Of a stretch of DNA of 64,000 nucleotides, positions 3,567 to 61,965 are shown piece by piece. The translations under genes and the position numbers were made by a program. The DNA comes from Seison nebaliae. Taxonomy: Eukaryota; Rotifera; Pararotatoria; Seisonacea; Seisonidae. Location of the stretch: NCBI GenBank assembly GCA_023231475.1, contig JALJEE010001980.1, forward strand, positions 1 to 64,000, in the 5' to 3' direction. The notes under the pieces were generated by a model that searched no databases, had not been told where the DNA came from, and saw only the letters and a program-made list of their open reading frames with translations. Each line of letters begins with the position of its first letter. Within the stretch, counting starts at the first letter, position 1.

Positions 3567-4441
3567 ATGGAACAATCTTTGAGCATATCAATCCAATTAG
3601 AGAATTACGATCCTCTCATCCAGATTCATGATTTTCGTCTTCTACTTCCAAATTTGGTGGAAAAAAAGTGTAAGAATCGTATCTTCTTTTCACGGAAGTC
3701 GTTTGCGAAAAAAATTTTTAAAATTTTCAAAACATTGTTGGTAGAAATAGCAAAACAATATCCGGCCCGCTTGAAAGAAGAACTTAATGATTTACGTTAA
3801 TTCTTCCTTAAATAATTTCGAATATGTTCGGTTTTTTAGATAACTTCTTAGAAAATTCTTTGGTAACTTATCATCAAACGAAATATTTCGATATCTATAA
3901 AGGTTCTGGATTTTAGTTTTTCTTTACTTCTTTATTTTCACTATTTACTCTATAATTATTTTTAGGATTGCTTGCTTTATTGAATGAATTTTCATTGCAA
4001 TTCAGTATAAAAATGCAAGGTTTTATTTTCCAAATTTAACTTTTTACAATCATCGTATTTATTGAAAAGAATCTCAAGTGATTTGTATTAAAATGAAAAA
4101 TGAACTGAAAAAACTGAGTGGTGGATCTTTATACAACCGTATAGTTGCAAATGGAGAATCGCCCTTGAAGAATTGTCACAAATTACCGCCAATCTTAAGA
4201 AAAATGCACAAAAATAATATATATGTCAGTTAGTAGTTTATTGTTGATTTTTTCTTTAATTTTATGATTTTTAGATAATGAAAAGTATGACACGGTTTTA
4301 ACTGAATTCAAAACGAAATATATGACATTGTCTCCACCAAATTCGAAAGAGAAAAATGAAAAGAATGAAACTTCTTCAACGGCTTTAGTTGCAAGTGAAA
4401 AAAGTCATCGTTTTGTTGAAGTCGATGTTAATGAAATATAA
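3567..4441 (+). CDS. Unknown 223-aa protein, five exons
   Basis: I do not recognise the family. The exons that keep frame are 3567-3795, 3840-3902, 3966-4019, 4070-4228 and 4275-4441, with introns of 44, 63, 50 and 46 nt that all end in AG. The joined frame has 224 codons including the stop. The first half is basic and helical (FSRKSFAKKIFKIFKTLL), followed by amphipathic helix (LLALLNEFSLQFSIKMQ) and a polar, Lys/Glu/Asn-rich tail. No signal peptide or membrane segment is visible. The start is the first ATG of the first exon and could be preceded by a further exon. Its stop lies 7 nt from the stop of the convergent MITD1 gene. All four donors begin GTT. Confidence 0.7.
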
Positions 4442-4448
4442 AGATTTG

Positions 4449-5330
4449 TTATTTCCAATAAATGTCAATTACAGTTTTTTTACAACGTCGTAATTCAGTT
4501 TCATGAAATTGAATTGAATGTCGAGTAGTTTTTTGGAAGTAATCTAGTCCTCTTCCCATTGACACAACTATTCCGTTGTCGAGTCTTTAGAAAATTAGAA
4601 CGTTCTATAAAATTGTGTAAAAAAATATTAAAACTCAATTCGACGATCGTGAAGTTGTCCGTCATATTCTAAAATTAATTTCAATTGAGGAGAAATCATT
4701 TGAAGGGATCGATTTAATTCGTCAAAAGAAGATTCCCGTTCTTTCCATTGAGAAGATTGATGTGTAATTAATGTGACCTGTTGGATTTTTGGATTTAACG
4801 TTAATAATAGAGTTATTAATAACATTAAGTTATCGAACTAAAAATATAATTGGAAAGAAAATTTTGAAATTTTAGAAGGAACTTGATGTGGATGTATTAT
4901 ATAAGGATCGAGAATTTTCATTTTCGAAAAAGTTGTTGCGAAGATTGATGAAAAAACAGTTCGATATCCTTTTCCAACTTCATCATGTTCGATGTTAAAC
5001 GTCTTTCTGCATCGTCCTATTTGAATCTATTGAATAAAATTTGGAAATTCTTATAAACTTTAACTTAAAGTTGTGATTTTTTTCAGATGTTCTGCTCGTG
5101 AAAGATATTCTGAAATTTTCGATTTTAATATTTCACGCTCAGTCTCGTTACATTTCGCTACAATTAACATTTTTCAAGATAATTAACATTAAGAATAAGA
5201 AATAAATGAAACGTAGTCGTTCTTTCAATAATATTTCAACTCCACTTTTGTAACAAGCTAACGCTTCATCAAAATCACCTCGTTCGTCCGATTCGATTGC
5301 TTTACTTATCAAATGATTTTCGGCATTCAT
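4449..5330 (-). CDS. MITD1: MITD1 orthologue (MIT domain plus PLD-like C-terminal domain)
   Basis: In known MITD1, an N-terminal MIT domain binds ESCRT-III tails and a C-terminal phospholipase-D-like domain binds membrane, acting in abscission. Here exons 5213-5330, 5065-5157, 4883-5016, 4635-4837 and 4449-4584 join in frame to 227 aa, close to the usual 249. The MIT helices are visible (AIESDERGDFDEALACYKSG, then ISEYLSRAEHLKKI). The C-terminal domain keeps KILDPYIIHPHQ, LHDRRIE and MGRGLDYFQK, in the family order. The start was chosen at the ATG giving MNAENHL. An upstream in-frame ATG at 5,375 would add 15 hydrophobic residues. The gene is divergent from the methyltransferase (140-bp spacer) and convergent with the unknown gene. 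Confidence 0.9.
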
Positions 5331-6228: not shown

Positions 6229-6309
6229 TTTTATAAAAAACAACTTTTATTAGTAATTGGAAAATGCGAACGTTTTCTCATTAAAATATAATTACAAAAA
6301 AATGATAAA

Positions 6310-7461
6310 TTAAATATTCCTTCGTCTTTTATTTTCGGACAAAGTCAAATTCAATTCATGATTACAGTTCAAAATCTTTCTTTTCGTTAAATTCTTCTTT
6401 TTCATGATTCCTTCAAATGTCTTTCGTATGTCCTTCAATGTCTGTTTCGGGATTTCATTTGACATTTCTTCAACTTCATGATTGAGTAATCTCTTTTTAT
6501 CATCCATTTCATTATCTTCTTCATTCTCATTTTCTGTTTCAAAGAACGAGAATGATGGGACAATTTTTGGTCTGATTAAATTTCTTTTTGATATTGACAA
6601 GTTTATGAATTGTCCAATGAAACTTCCATTCTTTGGAGACTCAACCAAATTATAAAGATTTTTTAAAACATCTTCATTTACATTTTGAAATATTCGGTTG
6701 GTATCGTCGGGTAAGAAGGAAAATTCCTGCGAATTCGAACAAACAGTCAATTGTGCTTGTTCATCTATTGTCAAATAAGTATTAGAATAATCGAAAGAGT
6801 AAAAATTGTTTATTGCACGACCATTTTGCAATTGGGCAGCACATCTCAATCCAGTTTGATTAATATTTAAAATTTCTTTTGTTGTTGCTATGAAATAATG
6901 ATTTTGATATTTGAAAATACAATTACATTCATATGGACAATAGAAATGATGTCTTTCCATCGTCTCATCCGTATCATTTGACCATTTCTCATAAGTGATA
7001 ACGTAACCGCAATAATAAATGAAAATTTTTTCTTCCAAATCAAAAAACGAATGTTTCCCACCAATTCTTTTCTTCACCATAACATAAGACGTTTGAGGGA
7101 AATTAACAAAATCATCAGTGAAAACTGTCTCATTTATCATGGCGAAAGATCGCTCGTCAGAATAAGATTTACTAAAAATAATTGAGGAATAATTGATGGA
7201 AAATAGGTAAAGATAAATAAACCTCTGTAGACTCGAAATAAAGTTGTTATAATAGATCGAATGTCGATAAGATTTAAAAACCAGATTCAACTCGTTAAAA
7301 TCAAAGAAATAGAGTGCTGTCTCTCCTGCCATAAAGACATGAAATAATAAAACTGTATTATTCCACCAATTGACATCTATCAATTTTTCCTTATTTTAAT
7401 TATGATAATAATTAATTTAACCATTAATCATATAATTTAAATTGTTCCGTTGCCATTTCAT
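6310..7461 (-). CDS. Unknown ~350-aa protein with basic C-terminus
   Basis: Not recognised. The main frame (7383 to 6310) contains a 51-nt segment at 7172-7222 that starts GTTTAT and ends TTTTTAG. It has no stop and a length divisible by three, so it is probably a spliced intron hidden in the ORF. A small first exon starting at 7461 (MKWQRNNLNYMIN) joins in frame through a GTTAAA donor. The first two thirds alternate hydrophobic strands and Cys/Tyr-rich turns (FYCPYECNCIFKYQNHYFI), as in a beta-propeller. The last quarter is acidic, then lysine/arginine-rich (SENKRRRNI), suggesting nuclear location. Function is not assigned. Confidence 0.65.
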
Positions 7462-7822
7462 GAAAGGAATTAAGAGTTTTTTCGAAGCACATATCTTCTC
7501 ATCCACATCAAGATGAAAAAAAGATATGTATCGACCGACAGTTACGATCAAGTCTAAATGATTTTCAGAATTTTGAAGAAAAGTTTAATTTGAGCAATTT
7601 GAAATTCATTGTGAAGAAATTGGAAATGAATTAAAAGAAAAATGAAAAGATGAAAAGTGCGCCAAAAATGAGATAAGACCCATGGAAAAGTGAGACCAGT
7701 ATAAAAACGAAGTTAAACAAAATGAAAATTCGCACTAACGAATTTCAATAAATTTCTTTCGATTTCATTATTTTTCTCCTTCACCTAAAAGATATTTACA
7801 TATTTTTTTTGTTCGTCATTTT
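7462..7822. promoter_or_regulatory. Divergent intergenic region, BTB gene 5' side
   Basis: About 360 bp separate two divergent genes, so promoters for both should lie here. I see no clear TATA arrangement and no repeat. The start codon of the BTB protein follows a T-rich run. Confidence 0.4.
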
Positions 7823-13851: not shown

Positions 13852-14005
13852 GAAATTTCCTTTTTATAGACCATTGTATGAGAAAACGTCCATAATGAAA
13901 AAAGTGTATGACGAATATTCCATATGAGAAAAGAGGGTGAGCAATAAATTCGGCTCGTTTCACTGCTTATTTGGAAAATTCTATATAGCGTGAGGAAAGA
14001 CCGAC
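13852..14005 (+). repeat. Dispersed copy of the window-start repeat family
   Basis: Shared in the same order with 1-200: a TATAGAC-x-ATxG opening, a TCCATAATGAAAAAAGT unit, GAGGGTGAG, a CGTTTC-x-CTGCT segment, TTGGAAAATTxTATATAG and GTGAGGAAA. Several GGGTGAGG units are mutated or lost, so this copy is older or has fewer units. The extended colinearity implies a mobile or segmentally duplicated element and not chance repeats. Confidence 0.8.
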
Positions 14006-18348: not shown

Positions 18349-21300
18349 TCAATTTGTTGTTGTTGATATTGTTGGAGAGAAGTGATTGTTATGTTCTTCT
18401 GAAAGGGTGAATGATTTAATTCTTTTAAGAATGAGTTCGTGGACTGATTGGATATATTGAATATTCTCTTCATTCACATTCAATGATGCTAATTGTGCAT
18501 GCATAAATTGTTTAGTTGAATGTTGTGCTACTCGAAATATATCGATTATTGGTCCAACCACACGAAATGATGACCAGTTGACAATAGATTCATTATCTTG
18601 TTGATAATTCATTGGAATTGTAGAAATATATTGTTTCTCTAAATCTTTCAATTCATAAAGATACGTATGGATATGAGGAATGATTGAGTAGTGGATATAT
18701 GATGAGAAAGATTTGTTATAAATTCGATGAATCGTCGATGACGATGATGCTTCGGATCTCGATCCGCTCAATCCAATACTTTTCGACTTTTTTGCATCTG
18801 CTGAAATTTGATATATTGTTTGATGAAGTTGTTTGACAATATTTCTGAACTTGTCATTCTTCTGAGGTGCCTATCAACGAAAAAACATTAAAATTTTTGT
18901 TACAAAAAAAAAATTAACAATTTCACTCATAATCACTTTATAGATGGTGATGAAGCGTGCAGACACATGTTTCCATCCTTTTAACTTTTCAATTCCTCGA
19001 CTATATTCTAGAGCGGAGAGTATGGAGAAGGCAGCTGAATAGTTCCGATAGTTATATAGAAGAACATGTGTCAGATCAATAATTCTTTGTATGAGAAGTG
19101 CCATTGCTTTTGGATTGGATTTAGATAAAATCTCCATTTTAATCCACTGATGAAAATTTATTTCATATTTCAAATATTTTATTAAATTCCTTCTAAGTGC
19201 CTTATCAGTGTACGTGCTATAAATAAAGAATCCAGTTCTCGGTTCTTGTTTAATTTCTATCGATTCTCTCGTATTCAGAATTTCTGTTAACCGAATTTTT
19301 AAAAACAATTTCTAAAAAATATGAATTACTTCAAATTGATGTTGAGTGTGATGAGGAACTAACCATAAACAAAGAATTGATATGAAATGCCAATTCATCC
19401 ACATTCATTTTTCCATTTTCATCTAACAGGAAATAAGAGTGCTTCTCAATTCGATCAACCGATTGACCAATAAATGATGTGGCATTATTTTTGAAGAGAT
19501 GTTTTATAGTTAAAGGTGAAGATTCCACTTTCATTTTCAATATGATCATTAGAAACAGATTAATTAATTGCTTCCGATATTGAGTAACTTCATTGAAATC
19601 AGCATTCTGGAAACATAATTAATTTATGTGGAAACATTCAAATGGAAACATATTCTTCCACAAATTTAATAAGACAATTCATCATATCATCATTCTGCCA
19701 ATCTTCATAAAACAGACCATCCACCCAACAATATAAAACATCGAATAATCTCCCATATAGATTATATTCTTTCTCATATTGATTCCTAGAAAATATTTCA
19801 TTTTAATTATACTTTCCTGAGAAATAGTTGGAGGAAACATGTGTAGATAATTGAATGCTTCGAATATAGTTCGTAATAATTCGATATTAGAATAACGATA
19901 TCGATACACAACCAGTAACAGATATGTATATGATGATAAGAATGATCCTCTGTTATAGAAATAAAATATTGTAATTATAATTAATAATTATTAATATTAA
20001 ACAACTAACTTACTAAACACCAATAATGCAAGTCCTTGTAACGTTGCGGAATGTAATAATTTTTCATCATATTCGATAATACATTTTGATGCGAATTCGA
20101 GAGAAATTGACGATTGAGTAATTAATTGAAATTTCATTCGATTACATCGTTGATTTCGTTTATTAGTAATATCGTTAAACAATTGAGATAAATCTGTTCC
20201 TTTAGTTTCGCTCTGATCGATCAAATACGCTTCCATCTGCTTGCTTAGAACGGTTAGGTCGTTATCGCAACTGAATATAAGATTGACTAAACGCGAACAT
20301 CTATGAGAATTAGGCACTTAAATTGAGATTAATTAACAGAAAAAATGATGAGAAATCTTTGTAAACATTTCCCATTCGACAATAATTGATTATATTTCGA
20401 TACATAATTCAAACGTTCTCTTCTCTTATCATCGATAATCTGAAAGAAATTTTGGACGAACATGAGAAACTGAAGAATAACTGAACAAATTGTTGCTAAG
20501 TTTCCTGTTGGTACATCCTTCCAAACAAAGAGAATGAAAAGTGAATTGTGAAAGATTATTATTGAAATTATTATTATTGAAAAAAATAAACTGTTAAGAT
20601 ATTGTACATGATATCGGCTGATATATGAAATAAACTAATTGAATGATCGAGATTAGCTTCTTGAAGATACTCATTTTTGATTAATTTCAATTGTTGGAAA
20701 TATTGTCTGACCGGATTCAAATCTTTTCTAGTTTTTCTTATAATGAAAAATAACTCTTCCTTCCAATAACTCTTCATTTTGCTATTGTTGATAAAATTTA
20801 TAAGCCAATTTATATGATCTGAAAATAGAAATGTTAAAATTTTAATTTTAAAATTTAACTGGAATGTTTCAATGGTTTCTCATAAATACTAGATCTCTTT
20901 TCTGATTTGATTTGGAGAAAATCATCAGTTTTTCTGTTTCGGATTTCCGGTAAAATTATTCTGTCTTTGGAAGACGGTATGTGAGTTCTATATATGTTGG
21001 GTGATTTGATCGTCGATATATTTATTGGTTCAGGTAGAGCGATATTAATATTTTGTAATGATTTTGATTGAAATAATTCTTCATTTGAGATTTCGCATTC
21101 CTGTTGACTTTCCTTCACGACTTTCAATAAATAATACAACAATTTTTCATTCCAATCAACTTGTGGGAACTTTTCACGAATAACGAAAGAGAATGTCTGC
21201 AATCTCAAATCGGCAAAACGACGAGCATCTCTAATTATATCTTTTAAAATTTTACTATTATTTTATTATCCGATTAACTAAAATTAAACGTTGATATCGA

Positions 21301-26388: not shown

Positions 26389-29300
26389 ATGTTATCACCA
26401 TTCGGACAAAATCACCATTCCCCACTTCAATTGTCGGGAGTTCCCAACGGAGCTGTTGAATCGGCAACTAGTTCAAATGATGGCAATGGCTTTATTGGAC
26501 ATGAAGCGAATGATTTGATGTTTGATGAGATCAATTCAATGTTTGCTGCTGACTCTGCTGGTCGATCGTTACATTTCGATCCTCAATTAGATTCTTTTAA
26601 TTCGATATGCAATGATGATGATTCGGATGATAATTTCTTTCGTTTCATTTCTGATGCAGGCGATCTAAATAAGAAGAATGATAAAGAATTTAAACAATTC
26701 TCAAATTTTACTGAACAAACAAATGAAGTTAATTCGAATCATCATCAACATTTACATGGTCACCATCAGGAATCGCCTTTTCATCGACCAACTGTAACTT
26801 CTCAAACCAACCATCTTCAGCAACAACAGATCCATCAGAATTCACCTTTCTTTTTTCATAATAACATTTCATCAACATCATCTTCGACATCCTCATCAAT
26901 TCCTGCAGTAACATCAACAACTATATTATCATCCGAATCGTTCGGATATAATAAAACGAATGATATTACACCATCAAAAAAGAGTAGAACAGAAATTGAT
27001 GAAAAAACTCCATTCCATTTAATGGAATTCAGTGGACCCAACATAACACAGCAACAACAACAACAGTCTAATAACAGTAAGAATATAATGTTAACACAAA
27101 ATATTAATAATCATAATAATATCAATACTAATAACTACAACAACAACAACAACAACAACGGATTAATGAATATAAAGGATGAAATGACAAAAGTGAAAGT
27201 GGAGAAAGTAGATGGGAATTATTATACTAAAACTCCGAAAAATTCACAAGGTCATTTGAGGAAAGATCTCGAACCGACACCAAATGGGACAGATGAAGAA
27301 TATTCGGCAGCCGATTCCACCGAGTACACCAGTGACAACATTGGCGACTGCTCCAGTTCAGTAAGTGCGGAAAGTCCCAATGAAAGTGGAGAGAAAGAGA
27401 AATCGAATGAAACGGAATTTGAATCTAATAAATCGAATAATTCTTCTGAGAATGGATCAGTGAAAAATAACGGGAAAGCACGACGTCGACGACGTCATAC
27501 ATCGTTGGCTGACGGAGAGATCGAACCTTCCCAATCATTATGTCAAATTTGTGGAGATCGTGCTTCCGGTTACCATTATGGAGTGGCATCTTGTGAAGGA
27601 TGTAAAGTTATTTAAATTTCTTCTTCTAATTATTTAACATATTTTATTTTTTAATTGTTCTGAATTAATTTCTTTAGGGTTTCTTCAGGAGATCGATACA
27701 GAAGCAGATTGAATATAAATGTGTAAGAGATGGTCATTGTACGATATTGCGATTAAACAGAAATCGTTGTCAACATTGTCGATTTAAGAAATGTTTGGAA
27801 GTTGGAATGTCTCGCGAAGCCGTTCGATATGGTCGAACGCAGAAAAAACCTAATGAACTTCTAGCGGACTTTGCACAAAACGCTTCTAATCTTCTTCTGG
27901 GCTGCTCGACACCTCTCGGCAATTTATCATTACCAATCAATGTTCCAGGTAATGGTAATAATCCATTTAATCGTTGTACTTTTCCTCCAACTCCAGGAGC
28001 ATTCGCTGCAGCCGCTTTAGCACAAGGTCGTGCTCTCAATCTACAACAACCTTTCCGTCAAGCGAGTTTATTGAATGTTGCTAATGTGAGACATCATCAG
28101 CAACAACAACAACATCAACAAAAATTATCTTTAGCTACGGCAGCAATAGCTGCTCATACGAATGGAACGAATCTTTTATCTAATTCTAATAATAACAATA
28201 CGAATAATGGAAATAATACGAAACGATGTTTATCCTTCAATAATTTACCTGCAGTTATCGGTTTTGATCGAAATATTGGTATCAATGGAGCATTGATTAA
28301 CGCAGTTGCCCAAGGTGCAAAATCGCCAACTGCCCAACAAGAAATAATGATTTTGATTAATCAACAAATTATTGAAAAAGTTCATATTTCATTATGGAAA
28401 TTATAAAAATTTCAAATTATTTTCATTCTTATTTTCATTCATTTTCATTTATAGAATAATGAATTAATGAGAACTCATCTTTCTTTGACGATCACAAAAG
28501 CTTTTCTTGCTACGTGTAAATATTCGAGGAACTGCGTCGATTTATTAAGGAGGAAGAAGAAAAGAATAATTTATTCAAATGATTGTCATCAAATCCTTCA
28601 ACAAATGTCCAACGATAATAAATCCATAAGTTCTCTACCACCATCATTCTTCCAACAACCGACTGTATATTCACAAGATTATTGGGAGAACTTCCAAACA
28701 TATGTACAATCCATTGAAGGTGATCAATCTCTCCATCTCACAGTTGTACCGGTTATGCCGGAGAATAATTTGAGAATTTCTAATTTACGTCTCCAAACAT
28801 GGATGACGATGATTCGATTGTTAGAACCGGAAATTAATCATATCGTCGAGTTTTCAAAGAAAATTCCAGGTTTCTTCCATCTTCGTCAATACTTCGACAA
28901 CATTAAATTCTTTTCAGGCTTCCTCTCTTGTCTTCAAGGTGATCAATTATTATTATTAAAAATTGGTTTCTTCGAAGCGTGGTTAGTACGTATCGCACCA
29001 ATGTTTCTTGTTCCTGTGATGTCGAAAACGGTTCGATCTGCCAAATACAATGTAGATGATCAAATATGTTTGTCGGAATTCAATTCCGTCCAAGAATTGC
29101 ATAGACCTTTTCAAAATAGAAATAATTCATTTTTCAAACAGTCGAATCGTTTACAGGAATTAGAAATAATATTTTCTGATGGAACGACAATTAATACAGA
29201 TGAGATGCAATTCATTTATTCAAACGAATTAGTTCGATTAATGATGACATTCGCCGGACACTTGAACTCTTTACAATTAAACGAATGTGAAACTGGATTG

Positions 29301-37200: not shown

Positions 37201-37247
37201 TTCTGATAGACGGTGTGATCCTGATCTACATCCCCATTCTTATTCAT
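31218..37247 (-). CDS. NUP155: Nucleoporin Nup155 orthologue, 2009 aa, single frame
   Basis: Nup155 is a scaffold nucleoporin of the inner ring of the nuclear pore, with an N-terminal beta-propeller and C-terminal alpha-solenoid. Here the propeller region shows GVLFPVQRAYVIAGNTIKFW, ISADFYRSVLYVLVDSQKLF and FVLIFNTGVRIFYSF at the expected spacing, followed by HVRLADNL. The solenoid C-terminus keeps CCDYLIQYYLKKNQLAKMIN, INTRINSLQRSINF and PFDLRALFRVYGELY. The protein is much longer than the usual 1,300-1,450 aa. Acidic and polar insertions are visible (IIEEEQQDNEEFEVEDD near residue 275). The 6-kb frame has no stop and no obvious need for introns, unlike every neighbour. Some short stopless introns could still be hidden. 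Divergent from the CCDC96 gene. Confidence 0.85.
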   Translation of the reverse strand: MNKNGDVDQDHTVYQKEKQWYESLHRSVIRLTGPIYKYEKYLYETIPSGQLATTTPLIQLQQVSGDNATNYLELLSPNKPPKTNSNCIISSEQWSKYNQRTFDIHLHGSVYEIFHDRFLSLTEDQVRHKEYGVLFPVQRAYVIAGNTIKFWCFSDNSDFIHLDSIPERIFHVKLFRSDELDGFLSTFVLDVSFEISTHLLFVSCYQNFYVFSCCYNKPKNFFTISNCPIYALNPLNWHDYQKSLVRSKGQLTAIEYNVSINENNNDEIIEEEQQDNEEFEVEDDVINDSTNYLYVQEIFIYHHRQHIATCSNLLSNLQQGISKEDEKCGNFYTNRYHPTQRHLWQVVADGNETVTKKRIFLLTNNNEIYELIIPKMSLLKRVFTGGQDVMKPMKLELKRLHCESLLSNMIPEFISSIFRNSSTSSINGDGDYNFMTYNQYKKISMISADFYRSVLYVLVDSQKLFCFDLGFDGNSFKLIEVFTIQKIMDQLKNISISGHIQLQKIRGIIGVEVLSPYESERFHFVLIFNTGVRIFYSFENFSMRFISYQDLQKVASSSTIPSSSITTTSTGIRLSEYQKVDKFLSSNQSMKEICLIENRPSPYNIKIEHVRLADNLISELLGKFERISVTNYVMKNGIFFFIIQFTNDDGSISSILVKYDMTSSCLRRNCYDTSELVDSFQEVSEHLYIMDHYLDKSIIKDISHFEKEDGGMSNLYDGNLLSFVKFLSNGIIIEITIRTLDRQLSSLIDLTKTNEFNTTEPLLHAITKASSIVSNMNENFGKYLNFHSHIDTALAIMRLVGQQSTSFFDAPNDGRLQLLRETFFRMVESFIQSKHNEMIQLEERQFNQMKSVAQTPNFMTKSRMYNVKSAMRHVTDQHISISHLGNEEKKNRDMQLCVELLKFYEMIIQLYIAEVFRPFWDLHLFEVTKVDSGSSNLFSFGKSVFNFMFSNNFSYDSTPINDEDSINMIQPYDTKKEIEEKFLIETTTTAEELHGIYSNLNKLYRFFTEQLCQKENNSKSITTRHWMYNWRDAFEEMDENFESHRYSMYPKRRFPQGRFHQYNAMLTPEASLMRQQQEIVESLLQRIEFVKEIIGLFHLIILNNLLDQIYGQLDENCRYRFQTYRFSSLFVKDNKITDKLYLDIIRHSIRYYLKMAQYDQPNEFSQRMPMKEFCENLSYISPGLFTAGAATLAELRKCLRKATYLRTRPEYLVCPILPTVVTHVPNGIAPSILAVEPKMMKNDGTKRIKTLNNFNWNRDNDVDSVRQQYLDCLNEVSQIIEESNVLETLEESMLKVVINEMIVAGGLIHAVFICIKAGKCCDGLELATLFEWNRIWQNNPFIDMNVIRRQLTDSSVNNDSPLYTTITNDSVEHGYSYYLVRKDFYQIAIEILHELRSSTSGGTSAPVTQFLNKNANFPANNFGMRRMKRSRPEIDEMSPDDDDDVFVEIFQKLDPPLKLSKSNVNDFITRIIRLLILSDPISSMLKNSVDITQERLRQTNDARLYLSTTNRLMEKPVVSFSLLQSTIFEYYIRKNEGQQLTEIIFNLSNNANDSAEMAYESWLYYMSRPLLENEVNENVQQLHGVQNQQSISEDYKFRIDCCDYLIQYYLKKNQLAKMINVIYLFATSKYPIEINTRINSLQRSINFSPVDQNKWNESERLNYDQLLPQIQKVMYPIRIQQRFVKAIDQRLELMKNEQTKLFLNEIVMEINGQTTDYENMLRETRKRLNESIVELEEMCSNYSASLCFYSVMISLLAVAGTKEKSLIINIWEKFLKFEFRVMFDSSLQSFHEQSFNQIRHKQQLELFGNRLAEKIRDACLHYRDNYSWLPTLYIPLYEIIRYLEELCIRRDLFNEVNYDQKTFMMRSWALEHILLPILVTDNDRTAIFSSNKLGESSPFDLRALFRVYGELYTNAMAERIEVIKNHTISDDFNDNIHLYYANNTVYLLEWAINSGLIANDKQCQFIIENIKVNLFKMRDTLETIISSNKNPNVRLFLDHLNSKLDNYQF

Positions 37248-37686
37248 GTCGAAAAGAATAAGAGATGAAATTTAAATTTTCAAATTTTACGACGTTTTTA
37301 ATGCGGCATTCAAACTATCTCATTTAATCTAAATTATTCCATTGTTTATATGACATTTTTATGACAGTTGTGAAATTATAATTCTTTAATTAATAAGCTT
37401 TTCTCCCTATACATTTCCAACTTTTTTCTTCGGCTTGAGAGAAATTTTAAAAAAGTTTTAGTTTTCCTTTTTAAGCTTTTCTTGGTATCTACTCTATTCG
37501 AGACATTTGTAATTATTGGGCTTTATTTTCATTTTCATGAATTTCATGAGATTTCATGAAATGTGGGAAATATAACTAGATAGTTATTTCCATGGAAACG
37601 TGGACGAGAAGAAGAAATACACAAGAAGAAGTTTTATTTACATGATAATTATTAAATAAATAAAGTTATAATTAAACTGATCTAAT
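37248..37686. promoter_or_regulatory. Divergent promoter region with 10-bp triple repeat
   Basis: 439 bp between the starts of Nup155 and CCDC96. At 37,531-37,560 three tandem 10-bp units read ATTTTCATGA, ATTTCATGAG, ATTTCATGAA. The last forms the palindrome ATTTCATGAAAT. Helically phased repeats of this kind suit a transcription-factor binding array, but the factor is unknown. Confidence 0.45.
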
Positions 37687-45742: not shown

Positions 45743-45775
45743 GATTCCAAAGAAAAAAATTCTTTCGAAAAAAAA

Positions 45776-46862
45776 TTAAATATATTTTCTTTTAAATCGA
45801 TAATCAATTACAATGTGATGAATATTGGGTGCATAAGATTTAATTTTTACAATGTTCGAAATTGTTATCATCCAAACGGTAGTAAATTTATTTAATTCAT
45901 ACATAATTTCTTCACTTTTCTCTCGATATATTCCATTGACAGTTACCACCGGTGAAGTTCTAGTTTTGGGAACGAGATCGACATTCGTATGAACATGAAG
46001 ATAACACTCTTCTCTTCTCATATCCAGAGCATCGATTGCTGGTGAATATGCTATCGATGATGATGGTATTAAACCCAAAAGACAATGACTAGCTACATTC
46101 TTCGGCCCTACCTGTTAATAAGATAATAGATGGATAATTGAGAGAGAAAAAGATAAAACATTCCGACAATCTCCATTGTTAATGATACAACGATTTTTAT
46201 CAATTCTATTTAATGATAATGCACGATCCAATGCTTCACATGCAAATGGATTCCATTCACATGCATATACTCTCCTCACATTCGTATGAACAAGAATTGG
46301 TAAAGTGAAATAACCAATTCCAGCGAACATATCCAAAACAATATCATCATTTTTCATCAATTTAATTAAACGACTCTTCTCACTACCATTTCCCATACAG
46401 AACATAGAACGATTAAAATTAAAAGTGAATCTGATGGATAATGGAAAAGAATTAGAAGGAGAGATAATATAAATAAACATGACATTATTCTCTTTAGTTA
46501 TAATCCATTCATTCTTATCTCCGTATACCTGATGAACGTCTGGCGAACGATATTTATCATTTTTTACTCCACGATAAATTAGAATTCGATTCTTCTTCAT
46601 CACATCACAAATGGTGGAATAAAGAAGTTTATTCTCCTGGAAATATTTCGGGAAATTTAATTGTGAATAATAAGAAAGAAACTTTAAATTTCCTCCAAAT
46701 TTCTAATTGGAAATCATTCTCCTTCAATTCAATACTATCACCTCGACATTTCCATTTTTTTGGAATGTCATTAATTAGTTGATCAATTGTGAAAAGATGA
46801 ATATCTTTTTCGGTCAACACTAATGTCAAGACAGCATCGATAAGTTTCGTTCTATCAGTCAT
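45776..46862 (-). CDS. TYW2: TYW2/TRMT12, wybutosine aminocarboxypropyl transferase
   Basis: TYW2 transfers the 3-amino-3-carboxypropyl group of SAM to position 37 of tRNA-Phe in wybutosine synthesis. Three exons join in frame by a 46-nt intron (donor GTTTCT) and a second intron near 46,080-46,160 (donor GTTTTA). Visible are YRSPDVHQVYGDKNEWI, FNRSMFCMGNGSEKSRL, the SAM site VLDMFAGIGYFTLP, ACEWNPFACEAL, NNGDCRNV, LLGLIPSSS, and the C-terminal KSYAPNIHHIVID, all in family order. The start at 46,862 is the first ATG of the N-terminal exon (MTDRTKLIDAVL). Confidence 0.92.
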
Positions 46863-47233: not shown

Positions 47234-50200
47234 ATGGCTTGGAAGAAAGGCTTCAAAGAGCCGGTTGGCGACCTATTTGATAAGAAACAAATATGGATGT
47301 ATCTTTATTCAACAATAACTGTAAATTCGATGTTCTGTCTCTCAATGTTCGTTATTAGTGGAGAAATAATCGTTTATTATGCAGGTATGTTTTTCATAAG
47401 TAATTTGAAAGTTCTAGTGACATTTAAATTATAAATTTAAACTTCTAGGAAATCTGACATATGTTTGCTTCATTTTGGCTCTTGTATTGGTAGCATTATA
47501 TGTGATAAACCTCTACCGATTTCTACCATATGGCATACCTCATGGAGGATTATTTATTGTACTTAGGCGATTTTTCAACGCTAAAACATCTCATGTTGTT
47601 GCCATACTTAACTTATTATCGATAAACGCTATTATAATCGTTATTGCACATTCAGTGAGCAATTATGTTGAAGCGGCAACTGATGGACAAATCCAACGAA
47701 CAATGGCTGATATTGTCACAAAATTTAACTTGTACAGTCAGCCTACTGAAATCTTATCGACTTATACGAGAATTTTTGCAGCTCTCATCTTTCTCGCTTC
47801 ACTCATATTCATACTGAGACCGTTAACTTTTCTCCATCAGATCGCTATGGCTCTCTGTTTTGCTTTGACATATGTGCTGGTATTAACATGTCTCTTATTT
47901 CACAGCAGTGGTGGGAAACGTACATTTGTGGCAACAATTCCGTATGATATGAACGCATTACAAGAAGGTGTAGCTATATCGCTATTTGCTTTTTATGGTT
48001 ACGATGCGTACTTTTATGCGATACGTAAAGATCAGAAAGAACATAAAGAATTAAGTACTTGTCTCATTCCAACAATTTTTCCTCTCATTGTCATGCTTTC
48101 CCTCCTCATCGTATTAGCCATTGTTCTCACGTCAAATAATTTATGGCCACTCATCGATCCTGAAGTAACCATTTTCTCCGCTTATATCATTCGTAATGAT
48201 CGATATTATTTGAAACAATTAAGTATGTTATTCATTATCGTCTCATTATCATTGACCTCCGTTTATTGGATGAGACAATTGGTGCACTTCACACAAATAC
48301 TGTTTACCGATGAAATTTATAAATTTCCTGTTCCTCAACTCTCCATCTCTGTTCAAACGAAATTATTGGACAAATTGCTTTACGTCACAATTATCATAGT
48401 GGCAACAATTTTTGTTGAACCACATATTCTCATTGCTTTCGTCATTACAAATCTTTTAATATTTGCAATGATTATTGCATTCGCATCAATTAATGTGGAT
48501 CTGATGTGTAGTATCAATCCCAATCAAAAAACATATAAGTTCGATAGCTTGTCCTCCACCTACAACAGCACAAATAAAAGAAAGAACAAAAATCAAAATG
48601 CCATCGATTCCAGTGATGAGACATTTGCCGATTGGAGAGGTAATGTTAACACTTCCAATAATGCCAACCAATTCTTGAGTATTGACAGTACAACAAAATT
48701 GTCGGATAGTCAAATTCTCGATTTGGAATTAAACAAATTTTATACACGTACAAATTATGTGAACTCATCTGATATTGAATCGAATATTCGAAAAGAAGAA
48801 TCTTATCTCTCATATCAAGATGGTTCAGACATATCTAATGGAGAATCGGAATATTCTCGAAAAAATGGAAATGATTATTTTGAAATTAGAAATGATGAAT
48901 CCTTCGACATTACAGCGTTAGATGATGATGGATATCTGCCAAATATAACTAACATGAATCAGAATAGAAATAATAATAACAATAAACGAAGAGGCTCCAA
49001 AAGAAATTCCGGTAAAAATTCACGGGATTCCAGTTCTCGACAAAGCTCTCAAAGATGTTCTTCGTCGAGAGAGCAAAAAGATCAAGACGCGCGAAACGTA
49101 CGTATTGTTCACTTGTGTATTATTTCCTATATATTAATTATCGCCATCTATCAATACTTCAGTGAAACCTTAGCAAAACTAATGCCACTTTTCATTATCA
49201 TTCCAGCCGCTCTTTGCGTGGTGGTTTTATGGAAATTAGATCAATTGAATAAACAAACCAAATCTAGTCAATCCAAAAGCAAGATAACTCCAGTAAGTGC
49301 TTCTGTATTATTTGCGATGATAGTTCTCGGTGCCAACACATATTTCCTTACTAAAATTTATTGGAGACATCTTTTGACATATCTAATCGTTGTATTGCTT
49401 TGTTATTTAAGATTCCTCCTTAATTTCGACCGATTGAATCAACTTTTTAAAATAATCGAACATGTAAAGCATTCGGCTGATAAAGAAGAAACAAAATACA
49501 ACTCATCTAAACCTACTTCGAAATCAGTAGATTCTCGCTCTTCCGATATGTCGAGTGAAACGGGTAAAAGAGCTAGAGACAAACAACGTTGTTGTTATGG
49601 GAGATCTAGTAAAGAAGAGAAAAAGAAGAAATGTAAGGAAAAGAAGAAGGCTGCTGAGAAGAAGAAGAAAGAAAAGGAGAAGGCCAAAAAAGCTAAAGAG
49701 AAAGAGAAGGAGAAGCAAAAGGCGAATAAGAAGCAAAAGGATAAACAGAAAGGAAAAGACAAGAAGAAAGGTGGTAAAAATAAAAAAGGAAAACGAGACG
49801 ATTATAGTACTGGAGGTTATGGTGATTCTTCTGATAGTTCAGGTGATACTTCTTATCATGTCGAAACGGACAAGAAAAAATCAGGAAAGAAAACTTATAA
49901 TGTTCGACGAATTAAAAAATATTATGTCGATTCTCCCCATTCGGGAACACAGACAGGAGTAGAGAGTGGACATGAGAAAGGGCGTAAACGTAAGAAACCG
50001 TCTAAAAAACATAAAAAACACCAGAAGAAACATCATAGAAAACGTAAGCGATCTCCAACCATGACAAATACGACAAATGATGGACATGAAGGAAATACGG
50101 ATAAAGAGGCCATAGAAATATCGGTGAATGAAGAAGAACAGGAAGAGCGACAATATTATTTAGTACCAACCGACACTCCAAATCGAACACCAGAGGTACA

Positions 50201-51369
50201 TGAAAAACCAAAAAAAAAGAAACATCCTAAGAGAAGTCTCAGTTCTACAACGGTGGAAAGTGGTGCAAAAGTTTCCGGCTCTTTCCAAGCTACTCAGGCT
50301 GATACTATTAAGAAATATGGTCAATATAATGTCCAAACGATTTATAGTAAACAAAAATCAGGAAATAATAATGAAGAGGGCAACAAACAACGAGTGAAGA
50401 TTATCAATAAGACAAGTACTGCTGCCCAAACATGGAATTACAATAATAGCATGATGAAGCCATTAAGTGGCGAACCGACAACTTTTAATAATCAAAGTTA
50501 CTTTTAATGAAATGTCGATTGACATATCCTTTTTCTAGATAATAGGAGATGTATCTCATTAGAAAGGAATGAGTTTGATTTACCCATTCAGCCGAATAGT
50601 TTAATTCTCCTTCATAAGATCTTATATAAAATTTTCTTCTTCAGGATTAAATACGTTGCCTACATCCGGTTCTCAAAAAGATATGGCAGCACAAACTTTA
50701 CCTTTGGCAAAGAATGAGTTAAAATTCTATTCGCAATTAATGAACACCTCGATAGACAAGGAAAAGAACAAATTGAATTTTCAATCATTGATCAATATGC
50801 AAAATCCCATTTTGGACAAGGGCAAACCGATCAAATCTCACATGCTACCGATAAATTTACATGCGATCAATGAGTCATCTAAACTTAACCGTACGTTAAT
50901 GGAATCGTTAAATAAAAGTCAGAAAAAAGCGGATGATTGTATTGTTCTTCGAATCGATTTGCCCATGAGCAGTATAGCTAATCGACCAGATAATCTAACG
51001 ATTCCCAGAAATATAATTCGTCCGAAATATTTAGGTTTACCACCTGGGTTAACGAATGACAAAATATTTGATAACTTCTCCAAAAGAAATAATGAATATC
51101 TGACTACAAAGAAAGAAACGGATTTACTGATGAAAGAATTAAAACAAATTTCTAATAGTTCATTAAACAGTTCATTTATGAATGAAAATTTTGATGACAA
51201 TATCAGTGTGGATACAGATCTCTTAGCCAAATGTCAAACGTCGGAGAACGATGTGATGGTGATTGATGGGAAGGATCTGAATTCTGATTTAACTGAAACG
51301 AGTCATAATACCAGAACGTTATCAGAAACAAGTTTAGATTCGTTCGTTCTTTTACGTAGTAATCGATAG
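47234..51369 (+). CDS. CAT (SLC7)-like membrane protein A with giant lysine-rich tail
   Basis: Exons 47234-47384, 47449-50496, 50539-50598 and 50645-51369 join to 1,327 aa. Hydrophobic helices follow the layout of 14-helix cationic amino acid transporters. FVISGEIIVYYAG aligns with the end of TM1 (LAGEVAKDKAG-type), YRFLPYGIPHGG with the TM2-3 loop, and ISLFAFYGYDAYFYAI with TM6 (YAFVGFD-type). A final block of four helices ends near 49,440. The glycine-rich TM1 substrate motif (GSTLGAG-type) is absent. A Ser/Asn-rich cytosolic loop of about 180 aa separates helices 10 and 11. After the last helix comes a basic tail of over 600 aa with KEKKKAAEKKKKEKEKAKKA-type runs, ending in exons with VLRIDLPMS. 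Family assignment is by pattern; transport is unproven. Confidence 0.68.
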
Positions 51370-51599: not shown

Positions 51600-54500
51600 A
51601 TGGCGGGTAAGCATCGTAGTGATAAATATGATGAATCATCGACTTGGAAAAAATTGTATCAACTGTCTTTCATGACGTTTAATGTCTTCTGTACGACTTC
51701 GTTCTTTATAATCATTGGAGAAGTGGTAATAGATTATGTTAGCATTCAGTCGTATTTATGCTTCGCAGGCGGAGTCTTTATAACATTCTTATATATCATT
51801 AATTTACTTTATACTCTACAATACGGTATTCGATATGGAACATATGGTGTTCTCTGGTTAACGTACGGGTCAAAATATGCTTTAGTTATTGGATTTTTTA
51901 ATGTAACATCCATCTGTTTCGTGATCATCATTATTATACATTCAATCGTCGCTCACATTAATCTGTTGACTTGCGGACAATTTAAAATAATGGTAACGAG
52001 CATATCCTTCAGTTTCGATGAGGATAGTATTCCTTCTTTTATTGTCACCGAACCACATTGGGCTTGTGGCTTATTGCTTCTCATGGTCATGTTTATATTG
52101 GTTGCACGAATCTATCGCTTATCTCAGGGAACGATCACCCTCTTCTTTATAGTTGTCTACGTTGTACTTATGAGTCTATTATGTCATTATTATGATCATT
52201 ACGGAGATCCGTCTGTGGAGGAGGAGGATGGAGACGAAAAAAAGAATACTAATTTCATACAAGGCTTAACCATAAGCATGTTCAGCTTTTACGGTTATGA
52301 TTCTTTGTTTTATCATCTACCGAAAAATGTTAAAGTGAAGAAGAATTTCTTAATTTACTCTTTGCTCGGAATAGTACCATTGTTGATTTTTGGAGTAATA
52401 TTCATATGTTTTGATGTTTATCTAACTTTAACTAATATATGGCAGATCGTCGATTCATTAACTCCAATTTCGTCAATATTTTATGAAAGAATTGAATGTG
52501 GACGTATTATGCATTACTTTGTGGATTGTACAATAATATTTCATTTACTTCTTAGCATATTATTCTGGTTGGGTCAATTGAACGCGATCATGATCAATAT
52601 TAAGCAAGTCCATAAACAGATATCATTTAAATTAGGTTTCAAATTGATGGTTGGATATACCATTCTGTTGGCATTAGTTGCTGTATTTGTCGAATATCAA
52701 ACGTTATTGACATTTGTCGTTCTTACACTACTAGTCACAACCACGTCAGTTTCTACGGCAGCAATCAAAATTATTATGGCTAGAAATAATACATTAGACG
52801 CTGGTGAAGACAAAGAAAAATATGTAGGAAAGAAAACTACTAGACAACCTCCTAAGAAACAGCAAACAATTCAAATTTATCAAAGCTTAGGGGAACGAGG
52901 AAATATCTTTAAAAGATGCATTAGAAGAATATTGTTAACCGCTTTTTGTATGAAAATTTTAAACTTTGTATGGGGAGTGAAACGATCAGTAGAGAATCCA
53001 AACCAAAAAGAAACAAATACTAAAAGAACTAGATACAATCTGGATGATTATAATTTCATAGCTGGGACTCCAAAGAGAAAAAAAAATTATAGTTCCTCGG
53101 AGAGAATGCAAACCAGTAAAACTAAAACAAATAACAACAATAATAATAGAAATCGGAATAATACGGACACAGCAGACTGTGAGGAGAATAGTCTCATAAG
53201 TTCCATCATGGAAGCGACAGCAGATTCATTTTATTCATGTCTATGGCGAGCATACAATAATGACAAATGTAATCAAAGTCGTCTCCCAAAAATTACTTAT
53301 TCGTTTAACAATTCTAATGTGATCAATAATAATAACAATAATAAGAAAAACAATAAAGAGAATGATAATCAGAAGACCGATAAAAAGAAGTCGCATATAA
53401 AAACATATGAAACAATGTCATTGAGTGGACAGATTATTGTAGTTACTGTAATAATATTCATTGTTCTTCTACTGGGATTATCTCAATATCTCAAATATTA
53501 TTTAGATTACACAAAGACGATAATTTACCTCATAATGCCATCAGTCATTCTCTTTATTTTAGTTGTCGCCATTCTTTTATATATTAAAAGGATAAATTAT
53601 GTCTCTAAAGGAGATCCAAGACTTTCATTCTTCACTCTCGTACCATTCACATCAGTTACAATTATTGCGATCAACACGTTGTTGATGGTTCAAATAAGTG
53701 TCATATTTTTAGGAATGTATATAGCAATCATGTTCATTAGTTATGTGATTACCGCATACAACACATGCGAACAAAATTCAAAAAATGCATTTGAAAAGTT
53801 ATTTCAATTGAACGATGACACATCTACTCTTTCCGATTTATCTTCAAATCTTTCGTCCGTTGAATCGTTGAATGAATTTACTAAAGATACTAATACAAGA
53901 CAACAGTCTTCATCGAAAAAAGCACCACCACCTCCCAGACAGAAATCTCCCCCATCTACGTTATTCATTACTGCTTTTAATTAATCAATTTTTTTTGATA
54001 GATCTTCTTCAAGTTCTTCCTCTAGCAGTTCAGATCAAAACAACAACTCAATCGTTTCTACGACTATAGGTCGTCACAAAAGAAGAATAAGTTAACTGCA
54101 TCGTCCACCCTTTCGTAATTTCTTTTTGCCTCCTCATTCTAGCCAAAGTGATAGACAATATGGATACTTCAACAAACAACAATTATACGATAGCTAATAG
54201 TCGATCGATGAAAAGTAAGGAAAAGACTATATGGGTGGAAACTGAGTTAAGAAGACATCGTGATAAAAACCGAACAAAAGAAATGAAACAAATAACAGTC
54301 CCAACAAAAAACAATCGAACTAATGAGAATAAGATATCGAAAAGAGATTACATAAAGTATAAAGATCTGACAGTTAAGGATAATCAAAAATTTAACATTT
54401 CCAAAATCAAAAAGAACTGCTACTTAAAAAAACCTCGTAAGGAAAATTTCGTTGTTAAGAAGAAAATCGTAGATGAACAATCATCAAACAAAATCAAACC

Positions 54501-55224
54501 AAAAACTTCGATCTTAAAAATATTTCCAACGAGAAAAAATTGTAAAAATAAAAAGATACCAAAAAATTCAATATCGTTTTCAAAAGAAATGCCAACTATC
54601 AAAATGTCAAAATCAAAAATTGGAAAGAAACACACTGCAACTGATACGTGTTCGGGACTGGGTATTACCGATCTGATGGAACAAATTCAACAAACCAATC
54701 AAACAGATATTGACAATGTACAAGAGAAAAACAATCCGAACTACATTTATCTGAAAACGGATTTACCTATCCCATCTGAAAATAACTTGTCAAATAGTAT
54801 CATATCAAATAATGTAGAAATGACAGCTACAAGTTTATCTCCATTTTGTGTTCAAGATTACTCTCATCTTTTGAGTGTTCATCCATCTATCATAACACCT
54901 AATAAACAACCGGCGAAACATAAGATACGTTCGAGAATATTGGAAATTATAACGGATAACAAGGCGGAATGGGAAAATAAAACAGGAAGTATGCCTTGTG
55001 GACGGAAAAAGATTCATAACCGTCGAAATGATAAGAAGAATCGAAACGAAAAAAAAAAGAAATTAAAAATAATTGTAAGTCGAGCACATAATAAATCTAG
55101 TGAAGACGATTCGGTTATTATCATGAAAGGAAAGAAAAAGAAAAATAATATTTTAGCTAGTGATGATACGTACAAGAAAGAACTGGAAATGCTCGAAAGC
55201 ACATCATTCAGAAGTCACAAATGA
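51600..55224 (+). CDS. CAT (SLC7)-like membrane protein B, tandem paralogue
   Basis: Exons 51600-53959, 54002-54090 and 54143-55224 join to 1,176 aa. The helix pattern parallels the upstream gene: IIIGEVVIDYV in TM1, LQYGIRYGTYG after TM2, ISMFSFYGYDSLFYHL in TM6, and four C-terminal helices ending near 53,770. It likewise lacks the TM1 glycine motif and has a charged, Asn-rich loop (52,790-53,410) before the last four helices. Its tail is Lys/Asn-rich and spread over three exons, as in gene A. The small middle exon encodes a Ser run and SIVSTTIGRHKRR. The last exon carries YLKTDLPIPS, matching the VLRIDLPMS motif of gene A. Shared order, exon layout and tail motif show an old tandem duplication. 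Confidence 0.68.
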
Positions 55225-59298: not shown

Positions 59299-61043
59299 AT
59301 TGATTTGAATAAGATTGAAATGTGAGAAGAGGAAAGCATGTACAAATGAGCTTATATTTAAGTTGAAAAAATTTGAATCAATCAAGAAATTGTTGTGTAT
59401 TTCCTATAGAGTTTTTGTAAAACTAGTTATTTTGTTTTACGCCTTCAATGACTGAACCAAACTATTTCAGTTTTATTTCGAAAGTTTTAGTTCACAATAA
59501 AATAGAGAAATTATGTAGTTTTATATTTTAATTATCATTTTCGACATATATTAAAAGAGAAAGAAAATTATGAAATAATTAATTCTATTCCAGTTCATTA
59601 TATTCCTGTTAGTTGATATTTGTTTCATTTCATTAGAACATATTCCAAATTTTTAAGTTAAGAGTAAGTTTTGGTTTGTGTTTATGACTCTTTACGAGAG
59701 TTGAATAAAAATCTGATAGTTTATAAATTGAATTGATTAAAAATCAAATGACAAATGAGATGAGAAATTTCCTTTGTGTGAATTTGTAGAAGGTAAATCA
59801 AATATTTGATTTGGTAAGAATTATTTGTTCTGATTATTGGACTTCCTATCATTTACATATTCGTTCCATCTTATTATCTTAGATTTGATGAGAGTGAGAT
59901 TATAGAAAGATGAGGAATGTTCAAATATGCCGACCATCGACATCGACATATTCCTTTAACAAAAAGCAGTTGAATTATTGGGAGTGAGAGGAAAGAGGGG
60001 GAGAAGGATGGCAATGAAGAAAGATCAATAACAATCGATGATGGTTATTGTCATTGCAATTTGTCAACATACAGATGGAGATATGAACTTTTCATAGACG
60101 ATCTGTTCAGACGATGTGTCTATGTAGACGGGAAGAGATCGTCCTATCCATATCGGATGCAGATGAAGAATCCTCTATTTGTATATGTGTAGGAAATGTT
60201 TGTAGAGTGTAGTTCGTGAAGATTAGAGATGTACGAGACAACGTGTAAATCCAAACAAGCTCGCTACCACATATTTGGTTTTCCGGAGAGATAGCTACTG
60301 TATTTGGTCGTCATGTAATCGATATATTTATCTAGGATGCTAAACCGGAATTTTTCGATGGAAGTGAATCCCTTTGTCCTCAAGTGGTCAGCATACATAT
60401 CTGTTTTCTTGGCGACCTACACTCTCCATCCCCATGGTAAGAGAGAAGAACGGATATTTCGAAGACGCGTTGAAAGGAGAACGCATGACCATTCCATCGA
60501 CTATATAAATTTGTTGAGAATGTCACGTTTCTATTTTCGTAAGCAAATTTCATTTAGAATTCGTCGAATTACTTTTATTGATCATTCTTTCTTTTTTCAT
60601 ATTCGTCTTCTCACTCAATCCCTTTAATCTCACCAAATCGAATACGTTACCATCTTGCCTCCGATTGTATCAGATTTACGTTTGAAGGAAAAATAAGAAG
60701 GATTCAATTCTTTCTATTATTCATTTCCATTATCTTCTAATACTGTCAGGTTAAGATGGCTACGTAACAATTCGAATACATCATCATTCAATGAAATTCG
60801 CAGTGCCATTATTAGTTTGCAGAAGCAATAACAATGAAAAGGAATTCTCTTCTGTATAAAATTCTCCTCAAATAGTCTCCTTGGCAACTTATTTTTCTGT
60901 AATTTCCCATTTAAAACGAATTTCCGTTATGCCGATTCGAAGGAATTAAATGTAGAACAATAAATCGACAGAATTCTTTCTTGAAACTTCTCATTATCAT
61001 TTATCGCGTTCTCTCTTCATTCAATTATTCTTTCGGAAAAAAT
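59299..61043. other. 1.7-kb mostly noncoding region
   Basis: Divergent spacer between UTP25 and the NlpC/P60 gene. AT-rich on the left and less so from 59,930 to 60,500. Apart from the tentative small membrane-protein exons at 60,337-60,685, I see no gene or repeat. Confidence 0.45.
60337..60685 (+). CDS. Tentative small two-helix membrane protein (Asterix-like?)
   Basis: An exon preceded by TTTATCTAG and ending at a strong GTAAGA donor (60,437) encodes FSMEVNPFVLKWSAYISVFL. A second possible exon from 60,558 (acceptor TTTCATTTAG) gives a hydrophobic segment ending SLNPFNLT. The spacing FSM-x(6)-LKW followed by a membrane helix, and a later NP after a second helix, parallels Asterix/WDR83OS, a subunit of the ER PAT chaperone complex. 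The intron would be 121 nt, no N-terminal exon was found, and the match is short. I treat it as a candidate only. Confidence 0.3.
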
Positions 61044-61965
61044 ATGGTCAACAGAACGCGCCAACAAAAGAAACGACTGCGTAAAGAATTTGTTAGACAA
61101 GCCAAAAAATATCTAGGAGTTCCATATGCAAAAAAATATCATGAAGAAGATAGTTCTCATCATTTTATTCATTTTCTGATAAGTTCTCTTGATAGGTGAA
61201 TTGTACAAATCGAAATTATTTCTTGATTGTTGTGGTTTAGTTCGAAGAATAATGTATGATTTACGATACGAATTTGGTTTTCGTATTGGTGGTGGAAATC
61301 AAGCATATATGTTCGATACATTACCCAAAATCATAGAGGATGTGAATGAAATAAAACCTGGTGACTTAGTATTTACTAAAGCTCAACATAATACAGGAGA
61401 AAGTTTCTTTAATTCATATCCCACTCAAAACAATTCTCATTCTTTCAAGAGAAGAAGAAACAATTACATGACATTTTACATGTGGAGATTATGTTGGGAA
61501 AAGGTGAGAAATGTATTGGTGCTAGATGGCACCATAAAGTCGTTACTGTATTCGATTCGTATAAATTCACCTCAAAAACTTATTCGAACAATATTTACAT
61601 TTTCAAGTCAATCGACACGTGGCTACTAGGCATTTGTCAAAGGTGTTCTCCTTCTCTTTTGTTCGTTTGACTAATTTCTCTTTAGTTTCTGTCCATTACA
61701 CCATTGGCCTTACTGTCGTCGAATTTATCCGAAGAAGACAACGGAATTGATATGTCTTCACAAAAGAAAGAAAAGAAGAAAGAGTGAAGATATTGTTAAA
61801 AATTTACGAGATTTGTCACTGACATCTATTATAATCAATAAGAAGAAGTTTAATAGAAGAACAACAACGAATAACAGCGTTTCTATGGTAACATTGCCTT
61901 GTAACAACTCTAACACTAAAGATGAAGGTCATAATTCTTCTGATTTCCAATTACCAAACTTATGA
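61044..61965 (+). CDS. NlpC/P60-fold cysteine hydrolase-like protein
   Basis: Four exons join in frame through donors GTTCTC (about 61,151), GTTTCT (about 61,401) and GTGTTC (about 61,642). The fold core is present: KKYLGVPYAKKYHEED, then FLDCCGLVRRIMYDL with the nucleophile position in D-C-C-G-L, KPGDLVFTKAQ, and LHVEIMLGKGEKCIGARWHH with the catalytic His, ending DSYKFTSKTYSN and SIDTWLLGICQ. This is a conserved uncharacterised animal branch of the NlpC/P60 superfamily. Bacterial members cut peptidoglycan or amide bonds. The animal substrate is not known to me. A basic Lys/Arg-rich tail (LHKRKKRRKS) of about 90 aa follows the domain. The start is the ATG at 61,044. No signal peptide is visible from it. 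Confidence 0.8.

Follow-up and report, generated by a model that had tools for sequence, protein, structure and literature searches.

GTT splice donors in the rotifer Seison nebaliae and U1 snRNA genes with a matching 5'-end substitution

Why would introns of an animal begin with GTT? The question is raised by a 64,000-nucleotide stretch of the Seison nebaliae genome (contig JALJEE010001980.1, positions 1 to 64,000; this whole stretch is called the window below), in which a preliminary description had read most 5' splice sites (donors) as GTT and had proposed an altered U1 small nuclear RNA (snRNA) or U1-independent recognition as the cause. The animal U2-type donor consensus is MAG|GTRAGT, with a purine at +3 and G at -1 and +5. 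Seisonids are rotifers that live on the crustacean Nebalia, and we sampled the donors of this one species in 294 kb out of 36 Mb and searched its assembly (36.0 Mb, 846 contigs) for snRNA genes. GTT is present in about nine of ten donors, in the window as well as in stretches of other contigs, and in three of the four U1 genes found, a base change re-establishes pairing with U at +3. From these sequences, we put at roughly 0.78 the probability that a compensatory change of U1 snRNA has re-coded the 5' splice sites of S. nebaliae, where calling the donor shift genome-wide is an extrapolation from the sampled contigs.

Junctions were placed with three deposited S. nebaliae proteins, SNEBB_003110, SNEBB_003120 and IFT172, which were used as gene models and whose read support is not visible. 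For each of them, we enumerated the DNA splits near every junction that yield the deposited protein. All 14 junctions of this kind in the window have exactly one GT/GC-AG split, which is a GT-AG split as in U2-type introns and starts with GTT every time (11/11 introns of SNEBB_003110, which encodes a RasGEF domain, PF00617, and 3/3 of SNEBB_003120, TYW2); at five of the 14, a single split of any kind is possible. The introns are as follows.

46637-46682, minus strand: TYW2 intron 1, donor GTTTCT, only GT/GC-AG split for SNEBB_003120
46431-46478, minus strand: TYW2 intron 2, donor GTTTAT, 48 nucleotides, in frame and free of stops, single split of any kind for SNEBB_003120
46112-46159, minus strand: TYW2 intron 3, donor GTTTTA, only GT/GC-AG split for SNEBB_003120
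21547-21593, minus strand: SNEBB_003110 intron 1, donor GTTAGA, from the deposited protein
21241-21289, minus strand: SNEBB_003110 intron 2, donor GTTTAA, single split of any kind
20819-20859, minus strand: SNEBB_003110 intron 3, donor GTTAAA, single split of any kind
20518-20591, minus strand: SNEBB_003110 intron 4, donor GTTTAT, from the deposited protein
20440-20481, minus strand: SNEBB_003110 intron 5, donor GTTATT, from the deposited protein, missed by the trained gene model described below
20317-20366, minus strand: SNEBB_003110 intron 6, donor GTTTAC, single split of any kind
19950-20009, minus strand: SNEBB_003110 intron 7, donor GTTAGT, from the deposited protein
19786-19838, minus strand: SNEBB_003110 intron 8, donor GTTTCC, from the deposited protein
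19607-19649, minus strand: SNEBB_003110 intron 9, donor GTTTCC, single split of any kind
19312-19363, minus strand: SNEBB_003110 intron 10, donor GTTAGT, from the deposited protein
18871-18918, minus strand: SNEBB_003110 intron 11, donor GTTAAT, from the deposited protein

The TYW2-like protein predicted from the window (46115-46702, minus strand) is identical to SNEBB_003120 in 146 of 169 aligned columns, and 16 of the non-identical columns form a gap that matches an unspliced in-frame intron. Outside the window, the analysed part of IFT172 (contig C120, match to SNEBB_000136) has GTT in 15 of 16 introns, the exception being GTATAT. Our prediction equals the deposited protein at 15/15 junctions, every one of which allows a single GT/GC-AG split (14 GTT, one GTATAT), while the sixteenth intron comes from the deposited protein and has GTTATT as its sole GT-AG split. 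Pooled over the three proteins, 29 of 30 donors are GTT (binomial p about 1e-10 against a 41% background). As GTT junctions are present in deposited S. nebaliae proteins, the earlier expectation that such donors would cripple standard gene finders finds no support.

Proteins of other organisms led to the same donor. In three genes with 33 junctions, frame-consistent GT-AG alternatives up to 36 nucleotides from the predicted ends were compared by a fixed-anchor global score; 30 junctions were scored, PMCA 6-8 being left out for want of a template. The best parses had T at +3 in 26 cases, C in one and A in three, and the predicted parse was itself on top in 26 of the 30. The other four comprise PMCA 4 (a different acceptor), SLC13 3 (a poorly conserved stretch), SLC13 10 (a probable missed exon) and IFT172 8 (a near tie, 43.1 vs 42.8). 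A local-alignment score, which placed the predicted parse on top in 21/33, was dropped owing to its bias towards deleting residues, and the C2-domain gene of locus L010 was not used, its synaptotagmin matches being weak. One further window intron lies inside a nuclear-receptor DNA-binding domain, where the exons flanking the junction CEGCK|GFFRR (27606/27607, a by-eye reading) match adjoining parts of PF00105, 2-25 and 25-70.

27607-27677, plus strand: nuclear-receptor DNA-binding domain intron, donor GTTATT, acceptor TTTAG, AAA|GTTATT...TTTAG|GGT

We also trained a gene model by expectation–maximisation (EM), in which only the GT start and the AG end of introns were fixed and the remainder was learned in Viterbi rounds. 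The training set, 264 kb in all, combined the window with twenty 10-kb stretches of 20 further contigs. From a flat start, T was found at +3 in 168 of 180 introns (C 7, A 3, G 2), including 50 of 52 within the window, and a start from a strong canonical GTRAGT donor also converged on T (165/178 introns). With the +3 column hidden in every round (294 kb, 24 sources), T occupied +3 in 163 of 182 introns, in 46 of 48 with both exons scoring above 10, and in 43 of 47 in the window, where two of the four non-T calls (19607-19717 and 45762-45902) overlap deposited coding sequence. The 180 EM introns have a median length of 51 nucleotides, and their donors depart from the animal consensus throughout: T makes up 93% at +3, A 57% and G 21% at -1, and G 23% at +5. 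Positions +4 to +9 contain 20 to 65% T, with +4 to +6 loose, in agreement with the earlier remarks that these positions are nearly free and that -1 has no G preference.

Control dinucleotides did not reproduce this pattern. The GT-AG model reached a trained total of 7173 at round 6 (7217 at round 10), compared to 6385-6879 at round 6 for seven other dinucleotides combined with AG, of which none showed a comparable +3 bias (largest single-base count 97/131, GA-AG). When +3 was masked, GT-AG totalled 7760 vs 7242-7582 for four controls, in which any one +3 base accounted for at most 79/154 introns. Without training, one flat pass across 16 dinucleotides failed to distinguish GT from the others (GT 6938; TT 6968, AT 6949, AA 6943); the EM donor numbers therefore depend on signals learned in training and have to be read together with the protein evidence above. 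An EM run in which no dinucleotide was fixed began to excise T-rich pieces from exons and was discarded. Coding potential by itself is weak in Seison for placing introns, for which learned signals and homology are needed. The donor bias was thus reached by four partly independent routes (EM, masked EM, deposited proteins and homology scoring), confirming the initial observation of a GTT majority.

If donors have changed, has U1 snRNA changed with them? Four U1 genes score above the Rfam cut-off, three of which start AUACUAAC instead of AUACUUAC.

C208, 6576-6739, plus strand: U1 gene L002, starts ATACTTACCTG, the canonical 5' end
C208, 8280-8439, minus strand: U1 gene L001, starts ATACTAACCTG
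C647, 4426-4585, minus strand: U1 gene L003, starts ATACTAACCTG
C762, 47440-47598, minus strand: U1 gene L004, starts ATACTAACTTG

The canonical U1 5' end, ACUUACCUG, is thus absent from three of the four loci, two of which carry ATACTAACCTG and one ATACTAACTTG, with ATACTTACCTG at the remaining locus. All four are full length and fit the U1 sequence-and-structure model (97.4-112.9 bits against RF00003, cut-off 69.5). In an alignment of the four copies, 15 of 41 predicted pairs are maintained by double changes in one copy or more, which suggests that the RNAs stayed folded while they diverged. In stem-loop II, the U1A site, AUUGCAC is retained by the three altered copies, and L002 has AGAGCAC instead. 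L002 and L001, representing both U1 types, lie 1.5 kb apart on one contig. On the three contigs with U1 genes, the +3-masked model gives 27 introns in neighbouring genes, of which 26 begin with GTT; contamination is hence an unlikely source of these U1 genes, and they most probably come from the same organism. Searching the genome for ATACTNACYTGGC returned the four loci and one further site, L040, which was rejected as a U1 gene as it lacks U1 features.

In the standard register, U1 nucleotide 6 lies opposite donor position +3 and nucleotide 9 opposite -1. Nucleotide 6 is A instead of U in L001, L003 and L004 (the A6 copies) and pairs with U at +3; nucleotide 9 is U instead of C in L004 and pairs with A, the commonest base at -1. 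The neighbouring nucleotide 5 has been reported to pair with +4 (PMC10581693). In this register, the A6 end AUACUAACCUG gives stronger pairing than the canonical end AUACUUACCUG for 169 of the 180 EM donors and equal pairing for six. Mean free energies are 0.02 kcal/mol for the canonical end, -1.61 for the A6 end and -2.69 for the L004 type, and the best of the three ends is L004 for 140 donors, L001/L003 for 35 and the canonical end for five. The 12 non-T donors lean slightly the opposite way (-1.14 canonical, -0.53 A6, -0.96 L004 type). The preliminary suggestion of an altered U1, whose 5' end it had proposed to read, is hence supported as an interpretation of the GTT donors, with U1-independent recognition as the alternative.

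The other pairing sites are unchanged. The one U6 gene found has ACAGAGA, in disagreement with a compensatory change in ACAGAG raised earlier; the one U5 gene has the CGCCUUUUAC loop and the three U2 genes have GUAGUA, all canonical, and U1, U2, U5 and U6 are accordingly present with the motifs of a U2-type spliceosome. We also detected a U1-C-type zinc finger (75.8 bits), one LUC7 gene and a METTL16/RlmF-family gene (PF05971, 44.8 bits, assigned at family level only). As a separate observation, a shared ATTAAACT motif occurs roughly 10 to 25 bases past the ends of U1 L001, L003 and L004, U5 L006 and U2 L007, with only a weak version at L002; to judge from its position, it is perhaps an snRNA 3' box.

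In the mechanism that we consider most likely, the A6 genes would supply the main U1 snRNP (small nuclear ribonucleoprotein) and read a GUU core instead of GUR by restored pairing, with the U at nucleotide 9 of an L004-type U1 possibly adding a pair with A at -1. The canonical L002 copy would be a remnant, either ancestral or specialised, with a possible role at the small number of GTA/GTG donors. The donor bias, the U1 sequences with their kept folds and the unchanged U6, U5 and U2 sites are shown directly by the data; from them we infer that most expressed U1 comes from the A6 copies, that donor choice is driven by pairing, and in which order these events took place. In its broadest form, a natural rewrite at genome scale, in which A replaced U at nucleotide 6 and, in a single copy, U replaced C at nucleotide 9, along with donor +3 changed to T and -1 to A, and a canonical U1 left from a duplication transition, is in our judgement probable.

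Several points weigh against this reading. With its near-top U1 score (112.4), L002 could be the major U1, and further U1 copies may be missing from the 36.0 Mb assembly, given that S. nebaliae genome B is reported at 43.9 Mb (GC 31.9%; PMC8351084). As for the donor counts, the EM model makes errors: its GTT intron at 45762-45877 overlaps coding sequence of deposited TYW2, and it failed to call two introns of the deposited proteins. The energy-scored donors came from a model already trained on the +3 preference, and pairing is weak overall, with a mean of six of 11 Watson-Crick pairs with the A6 end; with such a weak helix, U1 is unlikely to be the sole determinant, and U5/U6 or proteins probably contribute. 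Moreover, G at -1 is not significantly richer at donors with A or G at +3 (4/11 vs 33/163 for GTT; Fisher p 0.25).

This last result bears on a refinement of the U1 re-coding, in which two U1 particles would act in parallel, the L002 U1 on a GTR subset and the A6 U1 on the GTT majority. Both types do occur in the genome, as close neighbours on one contig, and two GTA donors carry G at -1: AAG|GTATAT in IFT172, from the deposited protein, and a probable exception in the window.

47385-47448, plus strand: transporter A intron 1, CAG|GTATGT, canonical-U1 type, called with and without the +3 mask

The latter is a model call, whose preceding exon is weak (coding score 6-7). Across all calls, there is no significant link between a +3 purine and -1 G, making intron sorting between two U1 types conjectural, and L002 lacks the AUUGCAC loop. 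We consider this division of labour possible, if somewhat unlikely.

Alternatively, U1 might play a minor role, with short T-rich introns recognised by intron definition together with U6/U5, GTT arising by composition-driven drift, and the A6 copies being minor variants or relics. The small size and T-richness of the introns (median 51 nucleotides) and the weak overall pairing fit such a scenario, and a review describes U1 as dispensable in some contexts (PMC11732430). Composition, however, would not account for 90-93% T at +3 next to 20 to 65% at +4 to +9, as T follows GT at only 50% of sites inside introns (265 sites), compared to 41% overall and 36% inside predicted exons. It also leaves unexplained why the same compensatory base is present in three of four structure-keeping U1 genes, and we regard a minor role for U1 as improbable.

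A misplacement of junctions by frame joining, with real GTR donors a few bases away, could be suspected from the initial by-eye joining of exons, the drift of training without a fixed dinucleotide and the indifferent flat pass; it is nevertheless exceedingly improbable, since neither the 14 deposited junctions of the window nor 15 in IFT172 offer an alternative GT/GC-AG split, of the 30 best parses from homology scoring of alternatives, 26 retained T at +3, and the canonical starting model converged on GTT. U12-type introns, which have RTATCCTT donors and are spliced with minor snRNAs, are likewise exceedingly improbable, as nothing was found in their favour, the GTT donors with loose +4 to +6 are of another type, and a genome search for U12 snRNA, run without a positive control, gave no match (U11, U4atac and U6atac were not searched).

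How does a re-coded U1 compare to known systems? One close parallel is suppressor U1 snRNA with a compensatory 5'-end mutation (Zhuang and Weiner 1986, as cited in PMC11732430), in which a base change likewise restores pairing to an altered donor; the suppressor is a laboratory construct for a mutant site, whereas the Seison change arose in nature and fits donors throughout the genome sample. In Saccharomycotina, switches from A to U at +4 are reported with ACUUACC invariant wherever U1 was found, and have been tied to METTL16 (PMC10581693). As in these yeasts, the preference beside GU has changed lineage-wide in Seison, which differs in having an altered U1; a METTL16/RlmF-family gene is present in Seison. 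The tunicate Fritillaria borealis is, like Seison, an animal with massively altered splice sites, described as having two U1 versions with identical preserved 5' ends, and its authors state that divergent U1 is not the alternative employed (PMC13326754); most of its introns are non-GT/AG, whereas Seison retains GT-AG and changes U1.

Entamoeba histolytica shares with Seison short introns (about 75 nucleotides) and U at +3 as consensus (GUUUGUU donors), and is reported without a recognised U1 snRNA (PMC6085484, PMC13292270), in contrast to the four U1 genes of Seison, three of them re-coded. In a diplonemid, an alternative U1 with a C-rich 5' end has been described beside a canonical copy, both pairing comparably with a canonical donor logo (PMC12621601); Seison similarly has altered paralogues beside a canonical U1, except that the altered U1 fits the majority of donors better. 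Human variant U1 genes are a further case of U1-like variants beside a canonical copy. According to a 2023 study, earlier work had given no definitive correlation between donor variation and U1 sequence (PMC10599564). In its accessible text, the paper on the S. nebaliae genome refers to splice sites a single time, in connection with GENSCAN-based homeodomain recovery, and contains no donor analysis (PMC8351084). Among the literature matches listed, which mostly do not cover subscription papers, none described GTT donors or a changed U1 for rotifers.

The U1 5' end is usually taken as fixed, being reported as invariant in Saccharomycotina despite donor switches and preserved in the tunicate (PMC10581693, PMC13326754). 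A joint change of U1 and donors, if true, would show that the U1-donor helix can evolve, suggest a route through U1 duplication, drift and replacement, and provide a natural test of U1 pairing versus U6/U5 in setting donor choice. Taken together, the Seison donors and U1 copies give the impression that a signal nearly constant in other organisms has been re-coded in nature, and they supply a simple annotation rule for seisonid genes.

The window contains several other features, which are listed here.

31218-37271, minus strand: intronless open frame of 2017 residues adjoining intron-dense genes, without a Pfam-A match at E 0.001
47234-51369 and 51600-55224, plus strand: two adjacent large genes, membrane-protein-like with lysine-rich tails, main frames without a Pfam-A match
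19-152: 30-base tandem repeat GGGTGAGGAAATTTCCATAATGAAAAAAGT, with a diverged relative at 13875-13933

The two large genes are perhaps a lineage-specific tandem pair, and the repeat is possibly part of a mobile element. In the assembly as a whole, one open frame spans most of the chaperonin profile (PF00118) at four of seven loci, a hint that some Seison genes have few introns.

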